A DNA stretch of 64,000 bases from Rikenellaceae bacterium (GCA_015059965.1 SUZM01000012.1:1-64000); one strand, 5' to 3'. Positions 15 to 11,735 are shown, counted from the first letter of the stretch. Program-made: numbers and translations. Notes: generated from the sequence alone by a model not told the origin.

Positions 15-749
15 ATGAAAAACATAGTAATAGCAGCAGGGTATGCAACGAGGCTGGGTGAACTGACCAAGAATTTTCCCAAGCCCCTCTTGAAGATCGG
101 CCAGAGCACTATTCTGGGCCGTATGCTCGATGATATCGACCGCATCCCCCAGATCGACGAACATATCATTATTACGAACCATAAGTTCGCCCCGATCTTC
201 GAGCAGTGGGCCGCCGAACAGCACTACACCAAGCCGCTGACGATCGTCGATGACGGCACCGAGACCAACGAGACGCGCCTGGGGGCCGTCTGCGACCTGC
301 TCTATGCGATGGAAAAACTCTCGATCGACGACGATATGTTGGTCGTGGCGGCCGATAATATCCTCTTCTTCTCGTTCCAGGAGTTTGTCGATTTCGCCCT
401 TGCCAAGCAGACGAGCTGCATCATGTGCCACGAGCAGCCCTCAGTGGAGAAGCTGCAGAGAACGGGCGTGGTCGTCGTGGACGAGGAGTGGCGCGTGGAG
501 AATATGGAGGAGAAGCCTCAAGAGCCGAAGAGCCACTGGGCAGTACCTCCCTTCTATATCTACCTGAAAAAGGATCTGGACCTGGTGCGCCACGCGGTCC
601 AGAACGGCTGCGGCAAAGATGCCCCGGGCAACTTAGCCCACTACCTGGTGGACCGCACCCCGATCCACGCCTGGCCCATGTCCGCCGGCCGCTTCGACAT
701 CGGATCCCTCGACACCTACCGCGAAGCCTGCGAAAAGTTCGGAAAATAG
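15..749 (+). CDS. Sugar-phosphate nucleotidyltransferase family protein
   Basis: N-terminal MKNIVIAAGYATRLGELTKNFPKPLLKIG matches the nucleotidyltransferase signature (AAGxxTRL...PKPL); C-term FDIGSLDTY. Confidence 0.85.
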   Translation: MKNIVIAAGYATRLGELTKNFPKPLLKIGQSTILGRMLDDIDRIPQIDEHIIITNHKFAPIFEQWAAEQHYTKPLTIVDDGTETNETRLGAVCDLLYAMEKLSIDDDMLVVAADNILFFSFQEFVDFALAKQTSCIMCHEQPSVEKLQRTGVVVVDEEWRVENMEEKPQEPKSHWAVPPFYIYLKKDLDLVRHAVQNGCGKDAPGNLAHYLVDRTPIHAWPMSAGRFDIGSLDTYREACEKFGK

Positions 750-761
750 AAAAGATGCAAT

Positions 762-2216
762 ATGGCCTCTGATCTAAAAAAGAAGACTCTTTCGGGAATG
801 ATATGGAGCTTTGTGCAGCGTTTTGGCACAATGGCTATATCGTTCGTTTCGAATATTGTCCTTGCGCGACTCCTCACCCCCGATGACTATGGCACTATTG
901 GTATGCTTATGATCTTCATCGCAGTTGCCAATACGTTTGTTGATGGTGGTTTCGGCTCGGCTCTTATTCAGAAGAAAGAGCCTACCGAGGAGGACTACTC
1001 CACAATCTTTTGGTGGAATATGTTCTTATCGGTAGTCCTTTATGGTTTGCTCTTTATAGGAGCTCCTGCTGTAGCAAGATTTTATAATCTACCTCTCCTT
1101 TGTGATGTATTGAGGATACAGGGAGTTGTGCTAATTGTCAATGCTCTAAGCATCATTCAACAAAATCAACTTAGAAAGCAACTTAAGTTTAAACGATTAG
1201 CCACAGTAACCGTGATCTCTGCGACTTTCTCTGCCGGTATTGCAATTATATTGGCATATATGGGATGGGGTGTATGGGCACTTGTGGCACAACAGTTAAT
1301 GTTAAGTGCTTTTACTGCCATACAATTATGGGTATTAAATAAATGGAGCCCATTGCTTATTTTTTCAAAAGAGTCTTTCAAGCAGTTGTTCGGATTTGGG
1401 GGGTTTATATTACTTTCAAATTTAATAAATACATTTTGTAATAATGTGCAAACATTATTAATTGGTCGATATTTCACCCCATCAATATTAGGTCATTACA
1501 CGCAAGCTCGTAAACTCGAAGAGTTGGCATCTACTAGCGTTTCAAGTATTATAGATCAAGTGTCATATCCAGTGCTAGCAGAGTGTCAGAATAATATTGC
1601 TGAAATGCGAACCGTATTGAAGAAACTTTTACTGTGCATAGCATTTGTAACTATACCAGTAATGGCAGTTCTTGCACTTAATGCCCATTCATTAATTATA
1701 TTTCTCTATACTAATAAGTGGGTTGAATGTATTCCGTATTTTCAGATACTCTGTATCGCTGGTATAGCGATTAGCATGCAAGGAATATTGTATTATGCTG
1801 TCGCCTGTTTGGGTAAAAGTCGAGAATTATTCATTTGGACTATCATAAAGCGAGGTGTAGGCCTTTTATTGTTAGTAGTAGGAATTTTTTTTGGCGGCAT
1901 ATATGGATTATTAATAGGAACTGTTCTGAGTACATGGATTGTATATCTATCAAATGCATATTTATGTTCTAAGCATATTCATTACACACTTACGAAACAA
2001 CTGTTGGATTTATTGCCTATCGTAATAGTAAATTTAATATCGTATTTAATATCGTATTATATTGGATCTTGTATTGCCCTTCCAATGTATGTAGAGAGTT
2101 TTATCGTAACAGGATCGTATATGGTTGTATATTTATTCATATCATATCTTGTCAAGATTAAACCGCTAATAGATGTATATAATATTTTGAATAATCTAAT
2201 AAAACGATTGCTATGA
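762..2216 (+). CDS. Polysaccharide flippase / lipopolysaccharide biosynthesis protein (MOP superfamily, Wzx-like)
   Basis: Multi-TM protein, N-term SGMIWSFVQRFGTMAISFVSNIVLARLLTPDDYGTIGM typical of Wzx/PST flippases. Confidence 0.88.
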   Translation: MASDLKKKTLSGMIWSFVQRFGTMAISFVSNIVLARLLTPDDYGTIGMLMIFIAVANTFVDGGFGSALIQKKEPTEEDYSTIFWWNMFLSVVLYGLLFIGAPAVARFYNLPLLCDVLRIQGVVLIVNALSIIQQNQLRKQLKFKRLATVTVISATFSAGIAIILAYMGWGVWALVAQQLMLSAFTAIQLWVLNKWSPLLIFSKESFKQLFGFGGFILLSNLINTFCNNVQTLLIGRYFTPSILGHYTQARKLEELASTSVSSIIDQVSYPVLAECQNNIAEMRTVLKKLLLCIAFVTIPVMAVLALNAHSLIIFLYTNKWVECIPYFQILCIAGIAISMQGILYYAVACLGKSRELFIWTIIKRGVGLLLLVVGIFFGGIYGLLIGTVLSTWIVYLSNAYLCSKHIHYTLTKQLLDLLPIVIVNLISYLISYYIGSCIALPMYVESFIVTGSYMVVYLFISYLVKIKPLIDVYNILNNLIKRLL

Positions 2217-3433
2217 TTAGAATTAGTTGCCCCAAAATAGAGCGCCATAATGATCGGGTGCTTATGATATCCAATATTACAGATGAATATCAAAACATAA
2301 ATGAAGATATCTACTATACAACTACAGATGAATATGGAGAATACCTATGTCACGAAGTTGCTGATGCTTTCGTAGTCGGCGTGTTGCTACCGGCAGCGAG
2401 ATATGAACAAGATATTATAGTTGAAGGTGCTGTATCGGACCGATTATACTACAATATAAATAATTCAGTATTGTATACTCTTTCATTTGTATGGAGAAAA
2501 AAAAGAGTTAGGCTGTACGCGAAAGAGGTCGTAAACTCACAATTTAACGGTGATGCTGTGGGGTGTGGTTGTTCGCTCGGTATAGATTCTTTTGCTGCAA
2601 TGCTTTTACACCTAAATAATGTAGAACTTCCTAAATACAATATTACTCATCTCACATATTTCAATGTTGGTGCGATGGGGTATGCAAATCTTGAAAAAGC
2701 AAAAGCATCTTACAACAAAGATATAGAGTTAGTTAAAAAATTTGCAACAAAAGTTAACTTGCCAATTGTACAGTTAGAGTCGAATTTCTCTATACTATAT
2801 AAGGAGTTTGATTTTGACCAAAGTGGTGACATTCGCAATTTTAGCGCTGTACTGGCTCTACAAAAATTATTCGGCAAATATTTGTATGGTTCATCATATC
2901 CTATACAAGACTTTAAATTTGAAATATCTCAAACGGGATACTACGAAACTCTATTAGCACCGTTGTTATCGACAAACTCATGCGAAATCGTCATAGCCAA
3001 TCCCGACTTAACTCGTATAGAGAAAACAAAAATTATTTTAGATAACAAAATGGCGCAGCAGACACTATATGTTTGTTGGAAAGAGCTTTTAGCTAATAAA
3101 TTTCCCAATTCAGAAATTGCAAGAATAAAAGATAAGTTTCTTAATTGTAGTAGGTGTGATAAGTGTTTGCGAACTCTTTTGGCTATTGATGTCATGGGAT
3201 GTTTGGAAAAGTTTAAGGATATCTTTGATATAGAATATTATAAAACAGTAAAAGACAAGTATGTTGCTAAAGTGATATACGCCAATAAACATAATGCGTT
3301 TTATAAAGATTTATCTAATTTAATCAAGGAATATAATCACCCGATCTCCTTTAGATCAAGGATATATCTCGTTATGTACAGACTCAAAGTATACGGAATT
3401 GCTCAAAGATTAAAATCCCTATTAAAAAAATAA
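2213..3433 (+). CDS. PP-loop ATP pyrophosphatase-like protein of unknown function in the polysaccharide locus
   Basis: GCGCSLGIDSFAAM resembles an SxGxDS PP-loop; C-terminal CSRCDKCLRT Cys cluster; ATGA overlap with the flippase gene. Confidence 0.6.
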   Translation: MIRISCPKIERHNDRVLMISNITDEYQNINEDIYYTTTDEYGEYLCHEVADAFVVGVLLPAARYEQDIIVEGAVSDRLYYNINNSVLYTLSFVWRKKRVRLYAKEVVNSQFNGDAVGCGCSLGIDSFAAMLLHLNNVELPKYNITHLTYFNVGAMGYANLEKAKASYNKDIELVKKFATKVNLPIVQLESNFSILYKEFDFDQSGDIRNFSAVLALQKLFGKYLYGSSYPIQDFKFEISQTGYYETLLAPLLSTNSCEIVIANPDLTRIEKTKIILDNKMAQQTLYVCWKELLANKFPNSEIARIKDKFLNCSRCDKCLRTLLAIDVMGCLEKFKDIFDIEYYKTVKDKYVAKVIYANKHNAFYKDLSNLIKEYNHPISFRSRIYLVMYRLKVYGIAQRLKSLLKK

Positions 3434-3438
3434 AGACT

Positions 3439-4563
3439 ATGAAAATTATTTTCTGTGGAGATGTAATGCCAGGCGGCGTACTCCCATATCAAAAAGAATA
3501 TATTACCAAAGAAGTAAAAAACTATTTGAAGTTATTCGATCTTCGCATTGGCACCTTAGAGGCTGCTATTGGTACAGACATTCCATATGATGAGACCAAA
3601 ATGAATGGTCGAATGAATATTGTGTATGCAAGAAACGAAGATTTCTTCAGAGTGAAAGAATTGAATTTTGATATTGTTTCTTTGGCTAATAACCATGTAT
3701 TCGACTTAGGAGAGGAGGGCTTGCGTAATACGATTGATATATTAAAGAGAAATAATATTAAATATTGTGGTGCAGGCTTAAATTATGAAGAAGCATCTAA
3801 ACCTGCTGTTATAGAACGAAATGGCAAATCGATAGCCATACTTGCGTATTGTATGTATGGTAATAAATACTTGGGATATGTTGAATTGGCAGGCAAAGAT
3901 AAGGCGGGCGTTAATCCGTTGGACATAGACCAAGTCGTTACAGATATTCGTAAATACAAGAAAATATATGATTATGTAGTTGTGATGCCTCATTGGGGGC
4001 GTGAGTATCAGTATTTGCCAATGCTTGAGTGCAAAGATATGTCTCTGCAGATGATTGATGCTGGAGCAGATGCAATTATCGGTGGACATGCACACAATAT
4101 ACAGCCATGTATTAAATATAAGGGGAAGCCAATTTATTTCTGTTTGGCAAATTTCTTATTCCCTGATTATTACATGCATCCACCTCGTCCAATATGGTAT
4201 CCTGACTCTTCATACGATGTTAAATCGATAAGTAAGTCATACTGTTACCCAGATCATATAGATAACCCCACAACATCTGTATGGCGTAATAGTAGTAGAG
4301 TCGGGATGGTTGTGGAAATGGATGTAAACGATACCATCAAAACGCGATATAGATTTGTTTATCTATCGAAAAATAATATACTCCAGTTTTATAGCAAATG
4401 TAACAGCATCCTAAAGAGGTTAAAATTATATTTAATGGGAAAATTGATTAAATCTAACGCTTATCCATCTTTAAAAAATTGTTACGAATCGAAGTACAAC
4501 CTTCCAATTCGCGGCTGGCATTTTATATACAGAAAATTACGCTTAAATAATATCTTTGACTAA
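3439..4563 (+). CDS. CapA family protein (metallophosphatase-like, capsule / poly-gamma-glutamate type)
   Basis: FCGDVMPGG...NLEAAIG-like start, SLANNHVFDLGEEGLRNTID, VVMPHWGREYQ, ADAIIGGHAHNIQP motifs of the CapA family. Confidence 0.88.
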   Translation: MKIIFCGDVMPGGVLPYQKEYITKEVKNYLKLFDLRIGTLEAAIGTDIPYDETKMNGRMNIVYARNEDFFRVKELNFDIVSLANNHVFDLGEEGLRNTIDILKRNNIKYCGAGLNYEEASKPAVIERNGKSIAILAYCMYGNKYLGYVELAGKDKAGVNPLDIDQVVTDIRKYKKIYDYVVVMPHWGREYQYLPMLECKDMSLQMIDAGADAIIGGHAHNIQPCIKYKGKPIYFCLANFLFPDYYMHPPRPIWYPDSSYDVKSISKSYCYPDHIDNPTTSVWRNSSRVGMVVEMDVNDTIKTRYRFVYLSKNNILQFYSKCNSILKRLKLYLMGKLIKSNAYPSLKNCYESKYNLPIRGWHFIYRKLRLNNIFD

Positions 4564-4575
4564 AATCCATACACT

Positions 4576-5562
4576 ATGAAAACCATCGGATTAATTATTA
4601 GCCATAAGAACGGCGAGAGGCGCCGTGCTTTGCTTCCAAAAGATATAGAGAAAAATGTTAAGAATCCTCAGCAGTTGTTTTTCGAAGAGGGCTATGGCCT
4701 ATCTGTTGGCGTAAGCGATGATGAATATCGCGCTGTCGGTTGTAATATAGTATCTCGCGAGGAGGCTCTTGCTTGCGATGTTATTACCGATGTCAAGCTT
4801 GGTGATGCTGACTATCTCGATGAGATAGCCCCTAATAAGATACTCTTCGGTTGGGCCCATGCGGTGCAGAATATTCCATTCACGAGCAATATCCTGAAAA
4901 ACAACCATACCGTAGTAGCTTGGGAGGATATCTTCGAGAATGGTCGTTACATCTTCTATCGCAACCGTGAGGTAGCGGGCGAGGCAGCTATTATGCACGC
5001 CTACCGCTATTGTGGCAAGATGCCTTATGACACCAAGGTTGCAATCTTGGGTAATGGACAAACAGCAAAGGGCGCACTTAGAATATTGCACGGACTTGGT
5101 GCTGAGGTAGATGTATATAACCGTCGCTTGGAGAAACTATTCCGTGAAAAGATGTATGAGTACGATGTGTTGGTTAATTGCATTCTGTGGGATACAAACC
5201 GCACTGACCGCATAATTTACAAGGAGGACCTCAAGAAGATGAAACCAGGTACAATGATTATCGATGTCAGCTGTGACCCTTACCTTGAGATTGAGACTTC
5301 GCATCCTACACCCATTGATGATCCAGTATATGAGGTAGATGGCATAATCCACTATACCGTGGATAACACACCTGGTATGTTCCCTATTACAATTACAAAG
5401 GTATTAAGCGAGGGTATTTCTCGGTATATTGACTATATCATCGAGGGAAGTATCGAGTCATATCCCAAGAACCTTCAGACAGCCGTAGTAATAGAGAATG
5501 GTCATATCCGTGATGAAAGAATCACCACATTCCGAATGGCTCGTAATGAATTTTGCAAATAG
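4576..5562 (+). CDS. N(5)-(carboxyethyl)ornithine synthase-like / alanine dehydrogenase-like NAD(P)-dependent enzyme
   Basis: ERRRALLPKDI, VAILGNGQTAKGALRIL (Rossmann), GTMIIDVSCD, VDNTPGMFPIT; overall resembles Lactococcus CEOS. Confidence 0.7.
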   Translation: MKTIGLIISHKNGERRRALLPKDIEKNVKNPQQLFFEEGYGLSVGVSDDEYRAVGCNIVSREEALACDVITDVKLGDADYLDEIAPNKILFGWAHAVQNIPFTSNILKNNHTVVAWEDIFENGRYIFYRNREVAGEAAIMHAYRYCGKMPYDTKVAILGNGQTAKGALRILHGLGAEVDVYNRRLEKLFREKMYEYDVLVNCILWDTNRTDRIIYKEDLKKMKPGTMIIDVSCDPYLEIETSHPTPIDDPVYEVDGIIHYTVDNTPGMFPITITKVLSEGISRYIDYIIEGSIESYPKNLQTAVVIENGHIRDERITTFRMARNEFCK

Positions 5563-5567
5563 TTGTT

Positions 5568-6722
5568 ATGCACTCAGTTAAGCGATTTCTTGCATTCTGG
5601 TATAGGTTAATACCTTGGATTATTAGATATCCGGCTAAGTCATTTGGTCAGAAGGTGAAGATACTCTTTGACTATATACATCTATATCGCACAAAAGGAC
5701 TTACTTGTGATGAATATTACGACTATGAGTTTGAAAAGCGAGGTGAAGAGTTTAGAAAAGACTTCTTGGGTATTCACGAACAAAGAGTATACCTAGACCT
5801 TCTTAATCCAGTAAAGTATTGCGGTTTAAGCCGTAATAAATTCTTAGCGCATAAGATTTTGGAAAATACTGGTGTGCGCAAGTCAGAGCTCTATTGCTAC
5901 TATCAACCAGAAGGACGAGTGTTTGATAGCAACGAAATAGCAACCAATGTGGTGGATGTTTGCCGTATTCTTAAGCAAAAGGGAGTTAAGCAGTGTGTTA
6001 TTAAGGACACTGAAAATTCACACGGCGAAGGTGTAATGGTCGTTAAGTCTATAGAGTATCAGGATGAAGATTGCAAGCTTAACTACTTTGATGGCAATAG
6101 CGCAAAACTATCTGAGGTTCTTGGTAAACATCCCCTAATTTTCGAGGCACTTATCAAGCAGACTGAACAGTTTGCTAGTTTCAACTCATCGTCAGTAAAT
6201 ACAGTACGCTTTATGACTGTCCTTCACCCTAATGGCGAAGCAAAAGTAATTGCTACATTTATAAAGATAGGTCGAGCAGGTAGCTGTGTAGACAATGCGG
6301 GAGCTGGTGGGAATGTAGATGTTTGTGTTGATGTCGAGTCGGGTGAGATAAAATATGCTATTCAGTATGATGGTTGGCGTAAAATCAGTGAAATCGAAAA
6401 GCATCCCGATAGTGGCACACAACTTAATGGCGTGATTCTCGACAATTGGGAACAGATTAAGGCTGAGGTAGTCCGGTTCCAGCAGGCCATGCCTTGGTGC
6501 AAAGCTGCGGGTTGGGATATAGCTATTACAGATGATGGCCCGCTTGTGATTGAGGTAAATGACTTCTGGGATCGTACAGGTCAGTATTTCATCCGTCGAG
6601 GCTGGCGAAATGGTATTCGCGACTGTTACAAAGCGTGGAAGAAAGAGGGTTTGTCACATATTGACTGGAGGCAAACACAAAGATTATCTAACACTCATTT
6701 AAAAAGAATAACAAAAAAATAA
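5568..6722 (+). CDS. Sugar-transfer-associated ATP-grasp protein (PF14397-like), copy 1
   Basis: CVIKDTENSHGEGVMVV, SVNTVRFMTVL...IGRAGSCVDNAGAGGNV, GWDIAITDDGPLVIEVND; start chosen at ATG 5568 (ORF open from 5553). Confidence 0.75.
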   Translation: MHSVKRFLAFWYRLIPWIIRYPAKSFGQKVKILFDYIHLYRTKGLTCDEYYDYEFEKRGEEFRKDFLGIHEQRVYLDLLNPVKYCGLSRNKFLAHKILENTGVRKSELYCYYQPEGRVFDSNEIATNVVDVCRILKQKGVKQCVIKDTENSHGEGVMVVKSIEYQDEDCKLNYFDGNSAKLSEVLGKHPLIFEALIKQTEQFASFNSSSVNTVRFMTVLHPNGEAKVIATFIKIGRAGSCVDNAGAGGNVDVCVDVESGEIKYAIQYDGWRKISEIEKHPDSGTQLNGVILDNWEQIKAEVVRFQQAMPWCKAAGWDIAITDDGPLVIEVNDFWDRTGQYFIRRGWRNGIRDCYKAWKKEGLSHIDWRQTQRLSNTHLKRITKK

Positions 6723-6734
6723 AATAAAATAAAT

Positions 6735-7817
6735 ATGGGCATTGTATCTATCTTAAAGAAGGGAGAGAGTTTCGTAAAACGCAAAATGCTATATAGAATT
6801 CATTTCAACACAATAAATGAAATGAGAGAAGGCAGAACATTTACCAAACTATCAAAAGAGCAAAAAGAAGAAGTTCAAAAATTTTGGAACAAATATTTTG
6901 GAAAGAAAATCAGCCTAAAATGGCACGAATATTATCTAAAGGTTAATGGTATCTTCTCTCCTCAATATATTCCTACATATATCTACTATGCCGAGATATA
7001 TCCTAAACTAAACGACCCTCGCATAGCTGTAGTATATTCGGACAAGAATATGATTGACAAATTACTTGGAGATAGAGTGAAATTGCCAAAGACTTATATA
7101 AAGAATTACAATGGGAATTACTACATTGATAATAAAGTAGTATCTAAGAAAGAGGCCATAGAGAGTTGCCTAAATATTGACGATGCGGTAATTAAACATA
7201 GTCTAGATACTTGCCAAGGAAAGAGTATTCTTCGCTTTAAAAGTGTTAATGGTATAGTAACTGGCAAAGATTGCCCCAAAACGATAGAAGAACTCTTTGA
7301 TAGTTATACAACCGATTTTATAGTTCAAGCGGCTATTCGTCAGAATGCAACCATGGCCAAACTCAATCCAACATCGCTTAACACGGTTCGTATTATGACA
7401 TATTGGGGGAAGGATGGCATTGTCCCTGTATTTGCGGTTGTGAGGATGGGACGCTCTGGTGCTGTAATAGATAACGCTTCATCTGGCGGTATGTATTGCG
7501 GTGTTAATATGGATGGGACTCTCAAAGAGGAGGCATATACATTATACCCCTTTTCATCACATACAGAATCTGACAACGGCATCGTATTTAGGGAGTTTAA
7601 GATTCCATATTTTGAAGCGCTTAAAGATAAAGCGCGAGAGCTTCATGCTCAACTACCATATGCGAAGATTATTGGTTGGGATTTAAGTCTCAATGAGCAG
7701 GACGAGATCGAGCTTGTGGAGATTAATGCGAACTCTCCCGGATTATTCCAAGGAGCTACAGGCCCAGCTTTTGGAGAATATACAAGTGAAATTTTGGAAT
7801 ATTGTCGTAATAAATAG
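6735..7817 (+). CDS. Sugar-transfer-associated ATP-grasp protein (PF14397-like), copy 2
   Basis: AVIKHSLDTCQGKSIL, SLNTVRIMTYWG...RMGRSGAVIDNASSGGM, GWDLSLNEQDEIELVEINANSPG; shared motifs with the preceding gene. Confidence 0.78.
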   Translation: MGIVSILKKGESFVKRKMLYRIHFNTINEMREGRTFTKLSKEQKEEVQKFWNKYFGKKISLKWHEYYLKVNGIFSPQYIPTYIYYAEIYPKLNDPRIAVVYSDKNMIDKLLGDRVKLPKTYIKNYNGNYYIDNKVVSKKEAIESCLNIDDAVIKHSLDTCQGKSILRFKSVNGIVTGKDCPKTIEELFDSYTTDFIVQAAIRQNATMAKLNPTSLNTVRIMTYWGKDGIVPVFAVVRMGRSGAVIDNASSGGMYCGVNMDGTLKEEAYTLYPFSSHTESDNGIVFREFKIPYFEALKDKARELHAQLPYAKIIGWDLSLNEQDEIELVEINANSPGLFQGATGPAFGEYTSEILEYCRNK

Positions 7818-7819
7818 AT

Positions 7820-8707
7820 ATGAGTATGCGCACGAGTAGAAAGTTGAGGATAAAAGCTTATGTTATAAAGCATACACCTGCATTTTTGCAAAAAAGACTT
7901 AATAGTTTTCTATACAAACGAGCTATTGGCCGGAGTCTTAATTGGAAGAACTTAAATGCATACACAGAAAAGATGCAATGGGCCAAATTCTACGATCGCG
8001 ATCAAATGAAGACCCTCTTATCCGACAAATATTTAGTTAGGGAGTGGGTCTCAAAAAAAATTGGGAAAGAATTTTTAATACCGCTTATTGGAGTTTGGGA
8101 CAAATTCTCGGAGATAGATTTTAATTCTCTTCCCAATCAATTTGTTTTAAAGACCAATCATGGTAGCGGATCTGTACTTATAGTGAAGGATAAAGAGAAG
8201 TTTGATATAGCTAATGCTCGAAAGCTTTTTAATGACTGGATGAGTATAGATTATGCGTATGCAACTGGATTTGAGTTACAATATTCAAATATTAAACGTA
8301 AAATAATAGCAGAGAAATATCTTGAGACAGATCTTGGAGAACTTCAAGATTACAAATTCTTATGTTTCGATGGGAAACCATATTATTGTTGGGTAGATCT
8401 TGGTCGTTTTGGGAAGCATACAAGAAATGTATATAACCTCGATTGGGAGCTACAACCATGGAATCAATATACTTATGGAAATTCTAAAGATCCCATACCT
8501 AAACCCAAAAACTTTGAAAAAATGGTTGAGATCGCAACCTCTTTATGTCAAGGATTTTCGCATGTCAGAGTTGATTTATACAATATAGATGGTGTGATAT
8601 ATTTTGGAGAGATGACATTTACAAATGGTTGTGGATTTGACAAGATTATTCCTGATGAATACGATTATATTCTCGGGCAATTGTGGAATATAAACACCAA
8701 AGACTAA
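7820..8707 (+). CDS. TupA-like ATP-grasp protein (PF14305-like)
   Basis: FVLKTNHGSGSVLIVKDK, DLGELQDYKFLCFDGKPYYCWVD, VRVDLYNIDGVIYFGEMTFTNGCGF typical of TupA-like ATP-grasp proteins. Confidence 0.82.
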   Translation: MSMRTSRKLRIKAYVIKHTPAFLQKRLNSFLYKRAIGRSLNWKNLNAYTEKMQWAKFYDRDQMKTLLSDKYLVREWVSKKIGKEFLIPLIGVWDKFSEIDFNSLPNQFVLKTNHGSGSVLIVKDKEKFDIANARKLFNDWMSIDYAYATGFELQYSNIKRKIIAEKYLETDLGELQDYKFLCFDGKPYYCWVDLGRFGKHTRNVYNLDWELQPWNQYTYGNSKDPIPKPKNFEKMVEIATSLCQGFSHVRVDLYNIDGVIYFGEMTFTNGCGFDKIIPDEYDYILGQLWNINTKD

Positions 8708-8720
8708 TACAAAATGGTTA

Positions 8721-9878
8721 TTGTACTCTATGAGGAATAGGATTACTATAATTTGTATGGCAATACTAATTATTGCCTCAACTGTTTCATATACACCAGA
8801 AATATTTGCCAATGATGCTATTTATGGAAGGTTAGGTCTTATTATAATGCTATCAGTTGTGACTCTTTTAGCATTTACTAATAACCTCAAAGAGTTAGTG
8901 CGTAATCGCTTTTTCAATAAAATACTATTTCCATTGATAGCCTTTTCGCTCATAATAACCACTTTTTATGCCATCGGCTTTAGCCGAGTAACAACTGCCG
9001 ATATAATGCAAATAGGTATAATATATGTGTCAATGTGGATAGGTCATGAACTTATTATTTCACAAAAGATCATTACCTCTTTGATTATCATGTATGCTAT
9101 ATTGGCTATATATCTCTGTTATGCATCTGCTTCTACCTATTTGGGAGTAATATCCATGGATGAAAATCTATACATGATTGAGGCAAAAAATCAGATAGGT
9201 GTAATAGCGGCCTATGCTGCTATATATATGGTATATATTGCTCAAACAACAAATAATAGAAAGTTGTCAATACTTACCTATGGTATTTGCATTATACTGA
9301 TAGCTCTTATGCTTATTATACGCTGTCGTACTGCACTTTTAGCATTTATTATTGGAGCTGGGTATATCGTATTTAAAATGTCTGACGCAAAACGACTTTT
9401 CGTATTGTCTTTAGTCGGATTCTTTGTTGTGTTAATATTCTCTGAACAGATATTTAGCACTCTACAAGATGCCTTCATTGGCGATAGAAATGTTAGCAAC
9501 CTTGATGAGGTGAGTTCAAATCGTTTGGAACGCAATGAACAAGGAGTATTGTATCTGCAAAATAACCTATTCGTTGGAGAGATGCAACATCATTCAGGCA
9601 TAGCAATAATCCATAATTATGTAATCAATAGATTGGTCAGGTATGGAATATGGGGATTGCCACTAATCTTCATATATTTTGTGATAGTCACAAAGGTGGT
9701 CAGACAAATACTGCTACCATTAAAACTTACATTTGCTGACATTGGTTATATTGGACTTATAATACCTCTTTTTTGTAGTTTATTAGAGCCCGATGCTCCA
9801 TTCGGACCAGGTACGGTTCAGGCATTCGCATACATCATGTTTGGATACTCAATTAAAAATTCAATAAATAAATTATAG
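8721..9878 (+). CDS. O-antigen polymerase/ligase-like multi-TM protein (Wzy-like)
   Basis: Multi-spanning hydrophobic protein, central loop with VGEMQHHSGIAIIHNYVINRLVRYGIWGL, position in polysaccharide locus. Confidence 0.65.
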   Translation: MYSMRNRITIICMAILIIASTVSYTPEIFANDAIYGRLGLIIMLSVVTLLAFTNNLKELVRNRFFNKILFPLIAFSLIITTFYAIGFSRVTTADIMQIGIIYVSMWIGHELIISQKIITSLIIMYAILAIYLCYASASTYLGVISMDENLYMIEAKNQIGVIAAYAAIYMVYIAQTTNNRKLSILTYGICIILIALMLIIRCRTALLAFIIGAGYIVFKMSDAKRLFVLSLVGFFVVLIFSEQIFSTLQDAFIGDRNVSNLDEVSSNRLERNEQGVLYLQNNLFVGEMQHHSGIAIIHNYVINRLVRYGIWGLPLIFIYFVIVTKVVRQILLPLKLTFADIGYIGLIIPLFCSLLEPDAPFGPGTVQAFAYIMFGYSIKNSINKL

Positions 9879-9883
9879 AAGTA

Positions 9884-10981
9884 ATGAAAATAGTATTCTT
9901 AATTAATATACTTCGCCAAGCCCGATGTATAAGAAGGGTAGAGGATTTTATCGCGCATGGTTACAATGTAGAAGTTTGCGGTTTTGATAGAGAAGGAGAT
10001 AATAGGGCTCTGCCAAGTTTTAAGCATAAAATAATCGGACACATAAGTCGCACTACATCGTATTTCAAGCGTCTCCTTATGATGAAGAATGCCATTAAAG
10101 TAGAATTGGCAAAACATGATGGAGAAGTCGTTTATTACATATTCAGTTTAGATGTGGCTATTGCTTTCTTATTAGCTGGAGGGGTAAGAAGAGGATATAT
10201 GTATGAGGTGTCAGACTTAATGGAGTTGGAAGTTGGCAATAGGGTTGTCTCAATAGTTCTAACTTGGATAAATAAGTTTATTATTAAACATTCTATAGAA
10301 ACAGTTATAACATCGCCCGGATTTGAAGATTTTTTATTTCCGAACCAGAAACTCAACAACATAAGTATCGTTGCCAACAAACTAAATAAAAAGATATTAG
10401 ATCTACCAAAACCTCAAAATAGAATTTTTGACATTAATAACATAACTATTGGTTTTACTGGTGCAATAAGAAATGTTGCAATATATAACTTTATTGAGGT
10501 GGTTGGAGAGAGTTTTCCCAACATATCTCTTAAATTTCATGGGATATTTACTGATGACAAGGTATACTCTACTAAAATCCAAAATGCAATCGCAAAATAT
10601 GATAATGTAAGTTATCATGGCCCATTTAAAAATCCTAATGATTTCCCTGAGATATATTCTAATATAGACATGGTTTTATGTTTATATACTGCAAAAGGAA
10701 ACGACAAGGTATTAGAGCCAAATAAACTCTATGAAGCAATTTATTTTGAGAAACCAATTATTGTATCTAAAAACACATTTACAGGTGCGTATGTTGAAGA
10801 GCGACATATTGGTTACACTGTTAATGGCGAAGACAAGAAGTCTATTAAATTATTCTTGGAATCACTAAGGATGCATGGATACAATGAGCGAAAGAATAAT
10901 TGTGCAAAGATTCCCAAGAAAGACTTAATTGATGACACAACACCGTTATTTAATAAATTAGAATTGATCCTAAATAGTTAA
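9884..10981 (+). CDS. Glycosyltransferase (GT4-like)
   Basis: FTGAIRN, YHGPFKNPNDFPEIYSNIDMVLCLY, LEPNKLYEAIYFEKPIIVSKNTFTGAYVEE typical of GT-B glycosyltransferases. Confidence 0.75.
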   Translation: MKIVFLINILRQARCIRRVEDFIAHGYNVEVCGFDREGDNRALPSFKHKIIGHISRTTSYFKRLLMMKNAIKVELAKHDGEVVYYIFSLDVAIAFLLAGGVRRGYMYEVSDLMELEVGNRVVSIVLTWINKFIIKHSIETVITSPGFEDFLFPNQKLNNISIVANKLNKKILDLPKPQNRIFDINNITIGFTGAIRNVAIYNFIEVVGESFPNISLKFHGIFTDDKVYSTKIQNAIAKYDNVSYHGPFKNPNDFPEIYSNIDMVLCLYTAKGNDKVLEPNKLYEAIYFEKPIIVSKNTFTGAYVEERHIGYTVNGEDKKSIKLFLESLRMHGYNERKNNCAKIPKKDLIDDTTPLFNKLELILNS

Positions 10982-10985
10982 TCTT

Positions 10986-11735
10986 ATGAATGAGTTGGTA
11001 TCTATTATCACACCTTGTTATAATGCTGAAGAGTATATTAGAGAAACAATTGAATCTGTTATCGCTCAGACATATTCTGATTGGGAGATGATTATAGTGG
11101 ACGATTGTTCAAAAGATAGCTCAGTGCAAATAATAAAGGAGTATATTTCAAAGGATTCTCGAATTAAATATTTCAAGACCGAAAGGCCATCTGGTAGTCC
11201 GACCTTACCCCGAAACATTGGTATTCAAAGCGCAAAAGGTCGATACATTGCTTTCTTGGATGCAGATGATATGTATTGTCCAAGCAAGTTAGAGAATCAA
11301 TTAAAATGCTTTGGCGATAATGTCGGTATAGTATTTTCTAATTATGAGAAGATGGAATTTGATGGTACTCGCAATAATCGCATCATTACAGCCCCTAGGG
11401 TTATCTCATATCAGAAATTACTACAAAGTGGATACATTGGCTGTGGTACAATGATGTATGACTCATCAAAAACAGGGTTGATGCAGTTTAGGGATGTCGG
11501 TCAAGAAGATTATGTGTTTGCTCTTAATGTCCTAAAAAAAGGATATATTGCAGTTAATACTAATACCGTTGAAGCTCTATATAGAATTGTGGGAAACTCT
11601 CGTTCAGCTCAAAAGATAGAAATGGCAAAACGCCAATGGAAAGTCTTGCGAGATATTGAGAAATTATCGTTTATTAAAGCGTCATATTATTTCTGCCATT
11701 ACGCAATAAAGGGAGTCTTGAAGTTTATTAAATAG
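10986..11735 (+). CDS. Glycosyltransferase family 2
   Basis: VSIITPCYNAEEYIRETIESVIAQTYSDWEMIIVDDCSKDSS...AFLDADDM canonical GT2. Confidence 0.93.
   Translation: MNELVSIITPCYNAEEYIRETIESVIAQTYSDWEMIIVDDCSKDSSVQIIKEYISKDSRIKYFKTERPSGSPTLPRNIGIQSAKGRYIAFLDADDMYCPSKLENQLKCFGDNVGIVFSNYEKMEFDGTRNNRIITAPRVISYQKLLQSGYIGCGTMMYDSSKTGLMQFRDVGQEDYVFALNVLKKGYIAVNTNTVEALYRIVGNSRSAQKIEMAKRQWKVLRDIEKLSFIKASYYFCHYAIKGVLKFIK

Follow-up and report, generated by a model that had tools for sequence, protein, structure and literature searches.

A CEOS-like dehydrogenase beside ATP-grasp ligases in a Rikenellaceae polysaccharide locus: candidate genes for opine-type decoration of a surface glycan

We analyzed a 64,000-nucleotide stretch of DNA from a gut bacterium of the Rikenellaceae (GCA_015059965.1 SUZM01000012.1:1-64000; hereafter the window), in which six contiguous + strand genes at 2213-8707 encode a dehydrogenase resembling N5-(carboxyethyl)ornithine synthase (CEOS), three ATP-grasp ligases, a CapA-like protein and a putative PP-loop protein. 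We consider it reasonably probable that these genes make an opine-type amino acid and amide-link it to a sugar of a surface polysaccharide, probably a uronic acid. All six open reading frames were confirmed at the coordinates given initially; no gap or overlap between neighbours exceeds 13 nt, and the order is as follows:

2213..3433, + strand: putative PP-loop protein with a C-terminal Cys cluster, a possible ATP-dependent amide former (motif, four homologues)
3439..4563, + strand: protein with the CapA/PGA_cap metal-dependent enzyme fold (PF09587, 4e-58)
4576..5562, + strand: CEOS-like dehydrogenase; predicted product an N-(1-carboxyethyl) amino acid, formed from pyruvate plus an amine (Pfam, tree, residues, structure model)
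5553..6722, + strand: ATP-grasp ligase, ATPgrasp_ST (PF14397, 4e-38; listed start TTG, in-frame ATG at 5568)
6735..7817, + strand: ATP-grasp ligase, ATPgrasp_ST, a second, divergent copy (PF14397, 6e-40)
7820..8707, + strand: ATP-grasp ligase, ATPgrasp_TupA, a predicted amidoligase (PF14305, 9e-62)

The dehydrogenase matched AlaDh_PNT_N (8.5e-18) and AlaDh_PNT_C (6.8e-26) in Pfam and has the AlaDh_PNT two-domain fold, at the length of about 310-330 aa expected of CEOS. Against the alanine dehydrogenase equivalog TIGR00518 it scored 108.7 bits, where the cut-off is 391.85. In a tree of 59 sequences including 15 alanine dehydrogenases (midpoint root; no order of the deep splits is claimed), the CEOS-annotated lactococcal proteins grouped on the CEOS side, apart from the alanine dehydrogenases, which occupy the other side. 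The window protein fell in clade B (18 rows), whose loci come from Rikenellaceae, Paludibacteraceae, Lentisphaerota and Bacillota. Clade A comprises three Bacteroidales proteins and four from lactococci and related plasmids; of these four, three are annotated as N5-(carboxyethyl)ornithine synthase. Clade C consists of 370-aa proteins (L069-L081 and L100-L103, found with the same profile) and was set aside; its genes stand alone, except for an E. coli plasmid member paired with an ATP-grasp. The lactococcal enzyme (EC 1.5.1.24) has experimental work behind it. Because the window protein falls outside the lactococcal clade, in a sister clade at 32% identity, we call it CEOS-like rather than CEOS proper.

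Residue conservation agreed with this placement. R16, K74 and H95 are common to all sequences, and D234 is present in all but one of the window clade; the window protein thus keeps the catalytic Arg, Lys, His and Asp expected of CEOS. Position 130 is Asn in all CEOS-like clades, whereas alanine dehydrogenases carry the Met of 'PMSEVAG', a residue that presumably lines the substrate pocket, and nine more differences of the CEOS type separate the two groups. The structure model (pLDDT 85.6) matched alanine dehydrogenase and transhydrogenase domain I, and the nearest solved structures are alanine dehydrogenases. A saccharopine dehydrogenase identity was considered and found no support, the PDB matches being alanine dehydrogenases and transhydrogenases. 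A plain alanine dehydrogenase was rejected on the cut-off score, the tree and the signature residues. The initial annotation had called the protein CEOS-like and had named loss of the conserved substrate-binding residues, or a plain alanine dehydrogenase, as findings that would speak against its reading; the assignment held, and as far as the catalytic residues go neither finding was made. In a viral structure library, by far the best match was an uncharacterised 1220-aa protein of the giant virus Yasminevirus (A0A5K0U889), which contains a CEOS-like domain (31% identity, TMq 0.79); no viral contig carrying CEOS was confirmed.

Relatives of CEOS came from ten GTDB loci, 396 Bacteroidota genomes, 393 genomes of the order, 150 near relatives and, for the class to which locus L011 belongs, 395 genomes. 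Among the 396 Bacteroidota genomes, a close member occurred in the window's own genome only, and the other matches (28-35% identity) resemble alanine dehydrogenases. CEOS adjoined an ATP-grasp gene in 12 sampled loci from Rikenellaceae, other Bacteroidales, Lentisphaerota, Bacillota and E. coli plasmids, with partners from three ATP-grasp families (TupA, ST and a third that resembles RimK/LysX ligases):

Window: ST, ST and TupA with CEOS
L002: ST and TupA with CEOS
L003: ST, CEOS, ST, TupA
L085: CapA-TupA-CEOS
L005: TupA with CEOS
L008: PP-loop, one gene, then CEOS-TupA-TupA
L011 and L098: TupA-CEOS
L066-L068 (g254): CEOS, then the third-family ATP-grasp, with CapA in L067 and L068
L012/L111 (E. 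coli plasmids): a 'hypothetical protein' beside CEOS that belongs to the third ATP-grasp family

In the nine CEOS-bearing genomes with known coordinates, five of nine TupA, five of ten ATPgrasp_ST and four of 22 CapA copies lay within 5 kb of CEOS. Random placement expects fewer than 0.1 copies each (about 0.04 each for TupA and ATPgrasp_ST); the uniform model ignores the clustering of polysaccharide genes and the Rikenellaceae loci are related, and these figures are guides only. Co-occurrence elsewhere, whose absence would likewise have spoken against the initial annotation, was thus found in independent polysaccharide loci.

On the E. coli plasmids (L012, NZ_AP027746.1; L111, NZ_JCAPTY010000003.1), CEOS and its ATP-grasp lie in an exopolysaccharide cluster with a UDP-glucose dehydrogenase and an epimerase, among IS91/IS26/ISAs1 elements; the cluster was present in 2 of 5426 complete E. 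coli genomes. The same ligases have another opine-forming family as neighbour at L106:3-3964 (G513:C57), where a saccharopine-dehydrogenase-like gene comes after three ATPgrasp_ST genes; in the PDB it best matched alpha-aminoadipic semialdehyde synthase and saccharopine dehydrogenase.

The ligases of the window are clear members of their families. Both ATPgrasp_ST proteins, which share 21% identity, exceeded the PF14397 gathering cut-off of 31.4 (132 and 138 bits), and in the 5553-6722 protein K151, R219, D322, E334 and N336 are near-invariant. The 7820-8707 protein scored 209 bits to PF14305 (cut-off 25), with near-invariant active-site-type residues K111, E165, D252 and E264. The CapA-like protein reached 197 bits to PF09587. 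All four therefore passed their Pfam gathering scores, as the families proposed for them initially would predict.

Published chemistry offers a precedent for both halves of the proposed reaction, as the initial annotation had supposed. The TupA-like domain of Cj1438 from Campylobacter jejuni amidates the C6 carboxylate of glucuronic acid (PMC11800379). As cited in PMC10609480, galacturonic acid bears amide-linked N-eps-[(S)-1-carboxyethyl]-L-lysine in the O-antigen of Providencia rustigianii O14, and Qui4N bears alanopine in that of Providencia alcalifaciens O35. The type B flagellin glycan of Clostridioides difficile ends in a taurinyl-Ala-Gly cap with an N-alkylated Ala, and mutants in CDR20291_0245 (ATP-grasp) and CDR20291_0246 (ornithine cyclodeaminase/alanine dehydrogenase-like) lose this cap (PMC5207246, PMC5207245); in our reading, the cap contains a tauropine-type opine. 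In the light of these precedents taken together, the window genes are best explained by synthesis of an opine and its ligation to a sugar through an amide. The 4576-5562 enzyme would reduce the imine of pyruvate and an amino-acid amine, most likely that of lysine or ornithine, to give an N-(1-carboxyethyl) amino acid, as judged from its family, clade and catalytic residues. At least one of the three ligases would then activate a carboxylate as an acyl phosphate and form the amide, a step suggested by family and by the characterised relative. We prefer a wiring in which the carboxyl belongs to a uronate of the sugar and the amine to the amino acid, as for the Cj1438 domain; three ligases would permit several sites or a short peptide. 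More weakly, the CapA-like and PP-loop proteins might modify the substituent, with metal-dependent hydrolysis or epimerisation and ATP-dependent amidation as conceivable reactions. Wzx would then flip the decorated repeat, which would be polymerised.

The preference for a uronate over an amino sugar as acceptor draws on uronic-acid sugar genes, which are present in most CEOS/ATP-grasp loci. UDP-glucose dehydrogenase (Ugd) genes occur in L002, L003, L005, L011, L098 and L012, and UDP-GlcA-4-epimerase-type genes in L002, L003, L011, L012, L085 and L098. Since the window opens at a contig start (G000:C11), the upstream half of its locus is missing. No exact end overlap joined the window to an upstream contig, and homology at the end of contig C7 of the same genome was used instead. 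There (L157:17572-19384), an initiating transferase and an epimerase that the contig end cuts short are 66% and 84% identical to two L003 genes that precede Ugd, upstream of the L003 CEOS. The C7 end is thus likely the upstream half of the window's locus, judging by sequence, and because its genes match those preceding Ugd in L003, a missing Ugd could lie in the C7-C11 assembly gap. Alternatively, the sugar-1-phosphate nucleotidyltransferase at 15-749, which is 58% identical to a G816 gene beside a galactokinase-like kinase, would fit uronate salvage.

Several observations weigh against opine synthesis and ligation to a uronate. Neither in the window genome (98.8% complete) nor in G816 did a Ugd-type dehydrogenase pass the cut-off; its likely place in the window genome is the C7-C11 gap, and that join is itself something we infer. 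The CEOS-like dehydrogenase is sister to the lactococcal clade at 32% identity, and may therefore act on another amine. ATP-grasp neighbours are lacking at roughly half of the CEOS loci of the window clade (L004, L007, L009, L010, L064, L097 and L099; L006 lies at a contig edge), and CapA, TupA and ST genes cluster without CEOS too.

The same opine could be attached with the opposite wiring, the ATP-grasp activating the N-(carboxyethyl) amino acid at its carboxyl so that it acylates an amino sugar. Alanopine on Qui4N in P. alcalifaciens O35 and taurinyl-Ala-Gly on Fuc3N in C. difficile flagellin provide published models, G731, G665 and G816 have DegT aminotransferase genes no more than about 7 kb from CEOS, and Ugd was found neither in the two genomes named above nor in the neighbourhood of CEOS in the g254 loci L066-L068. 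We nevertheless regard this wiring as unlikely: the characterised TupA-like ligase acts on a uronate carboxyl, Ugd and/or uronate-type epimerase genes accompany most CEOS/ATP-grasp loci, and the sequenced part of the window locus has no DegT gene. A reading in which the product of the ligases and CapA is a polymer of peptide or poly-amino-acid type, in the style of teichuronopeptide or polyglutamate, with an N-carboxyethyl residue at most as a cap, would account for three ligases and a CapA protein from families named after such polymers; the Wzx, Wzy-like and glycosyltransferase genes suit a polysaccharide, no PgsB/CapB-like synthetase was found by domain content among the scanned locus genes, and we hold this reading to be very unlikely.

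Two further explanations concern the dehydrogenase. A variant alanine dehydrogenase might merely supply alanine, with the ligases attaching plain amino acids, and both the closest solved structures and the four shared catalytic residues are compatible with this. Its separate clade, its score far below the alanine dehydrogenase cut-off and the change from Met to Asn in all CEOS-like clades argue otherwise, as does the fact that cells are already rich in alanine; we give this explanation little credence. A chance arrival of CEOS in the polysaccharide locus, as a mobile metabolic gene with no connection to the ligases, seems about equally improbable. The close relatives in L004, L007, L009 and L010 without an ATP-grasp neighbour would fit such an origin, L004 being flanked by TilS-like and DNA polymerase III delta-like genes; against it stand the adjacency in 12 loci across three phyla and E. 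coli plasmids, with three ATP-grasp families, and copy numbers near CEOS greatly above random placement. Opine synthesis followed by ligation to a uronate remains our preferred reading.

CapA and the PP-loop protein are less firmly tied to this pathway and have, as yet, no defensible specific role. In the CapA-like protein, the metal-ligand-type residues D8, N85, H86, H185, H217 and H219 are near-invariant, and the closest solved chains are annotated 'poly-gamma-glutamate synthesis protein' (8gq9 at 1.9e-14); a match to the lasso-peptide epimerase MslH (NF038314; 2e-18, 65.9 bits) was weak and below the equivalog cut-off of 700. The 2213-3433 protein had no meaningful match in Pfam, NCBIfam, PADLOC or PDB, and thus none to a PP-loop domain profile. 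It carries the SGGxDS-type motif of PP-loop ATPases as S121-x-G-x-D125-S126 (SxGxDS), which, with C288...C312-x2-C315-x2-C318, is invariant in four homologues; the PP-loop identity proposed initially is therefore plausible on motif and Cys cluster. Its structure model, from a two-sequence alignment (pLDDT 37), was not used. A defence-system reading, considered because such systems have QueC-like parts, was dropped, PADLOC giving no match.

CapA adjoined or lay near CEOS in only four sampled loci and the PP-loop protein in two. Without CEOS, CapA and PP-loop genes are neighbours in L104, and CapA lies beside an ATP-grasp in L107 and L108. At L104:8314-11719 (G421), the PP-loop homologue lies near CapA and AMP-binding-like and HpcH/HpaI aldolase-like genes, possibly a different tailoring pathway that shares the PP-loop protein. 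The initial proposal that all six genes form one module was thus not established; the dehydrogenase class, the co-occurrence and the precedent chemistry support its broader reading of an opine made and ligated to a glycan.

The setting agrees with the polysaccharide locus described initially. GC content is 33-40% across the locus and about 55% across most of the window; low GC is usual in exchanged polysaccharide loci. A Wzx gene lies upstream of the six genes and glycosyltransferase genes downstream:

15..749, + strand: sugar-1-phosphate nucleotidyltransferase, the contig's first gene (PF00483)
762..2216, + strand: Wzx-type flippase (PF13440)
8721..9878, + strand: Wzy-like integral membrane protein, a probable polymerase (position and hydrophobic sequence; no match in Pfam)
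9884..10981, + strand: glycosyltransferase, GT4-like (sequence appearance; a profile ties it to a gene of the second polysaccharide locus)
10986..11735, + strand: glycosyltransferase family 2 (sequence; a profile matches the Pfam-confirmed GT2 at L085 4633-5409)
11745-12851: PF14907 'uncharacterised nucleotidyltransferase', at the end of the locus (homologues in polysaccharide loci L003 and L108)

The second low-GC polysaccharide locus of this genome, L108 (G000:C14:158000-176000), carries a DegT aminotransferase, TupA, CapA and a PF14907-like gene, without CEOS.

More broadly, the recurrent pairing raises the possibility, which we advance tentatively, of a general, horizontally moving cassette in which an opine-forming dehydrogenase and interchangeable ATP-grasp amidoligases place N-(1-carboxyethyl) amino acids or capped peptides on surface glycans in several phyla, with CEOS-like, saccharopine-dehydrogenase-like and ornithine-cyclodeaminase-like families recruited to one job. 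Chemical work has shown opine-type amino acids on O-antigens and capsules, and the dehydrogenase/ligase pair supplies candidate genes for them. Such decorations could then be predicted from genomes, including those of gut Bacteroidales and E. coli plasmids. The pair also points to a way of making zwitterionic glycans enzymatically, and such glycans can be of importance in immune recognition and in phage adsorption. The open-access literature searched contained no description of this gene combination and no genes for the synthesis or attachment of opine-type glycan decorations; subscription papers on O-antigens lay outside the search, and those on Providencia and Proteus clusters may already mention such genes. 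Each step has precedent, and the recurrent genetic pairing and its spread appear to be new.

Among known systems, the C. jejuni HS:2 capsule (the C-terminal TupA-like ATP-grasp of Cj1438 with Cj1435; PMC11800379) likewise has a TupA-like ATP-grasp in a capsule locus forming an amide to a repeat sugar, but its amine is serinol phosphate or ethanolamine phosphate, no dehydrogenase is reported, and the ligase is fused to a glycosyltransferase. The two Providencia O-antigens share the N-(1-carboxyethyl) amino acids in amide linkage to sugars of the glycan; they are known as chemical structures (cited in PMC10609480), and we found no gene assignment in the open-access literature searched. The C. 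difficile flagellin system also places an ATP-grasp beside an enzyme of an amino-acid-dehydrogenase family, both being required for the cap, although the dehydrogenase family is another one, the ATP-grasp belongs to PF13535 and the acceptor is an amino sugar on flagellin. Lactococcal CEOS, from the sister clade, shares the AlaDh_PNT fold, the length and the signature residues with the window protein, and differs in sequence (32% identity) and in having no ATP-grasp neighbour among its plasmid genes. Finally, the window ligases, with their conserved residues, stand well within the ATPgrasp_ST and ATPgrasp_TupA families, here paired with an opine-type dehydrogenase.

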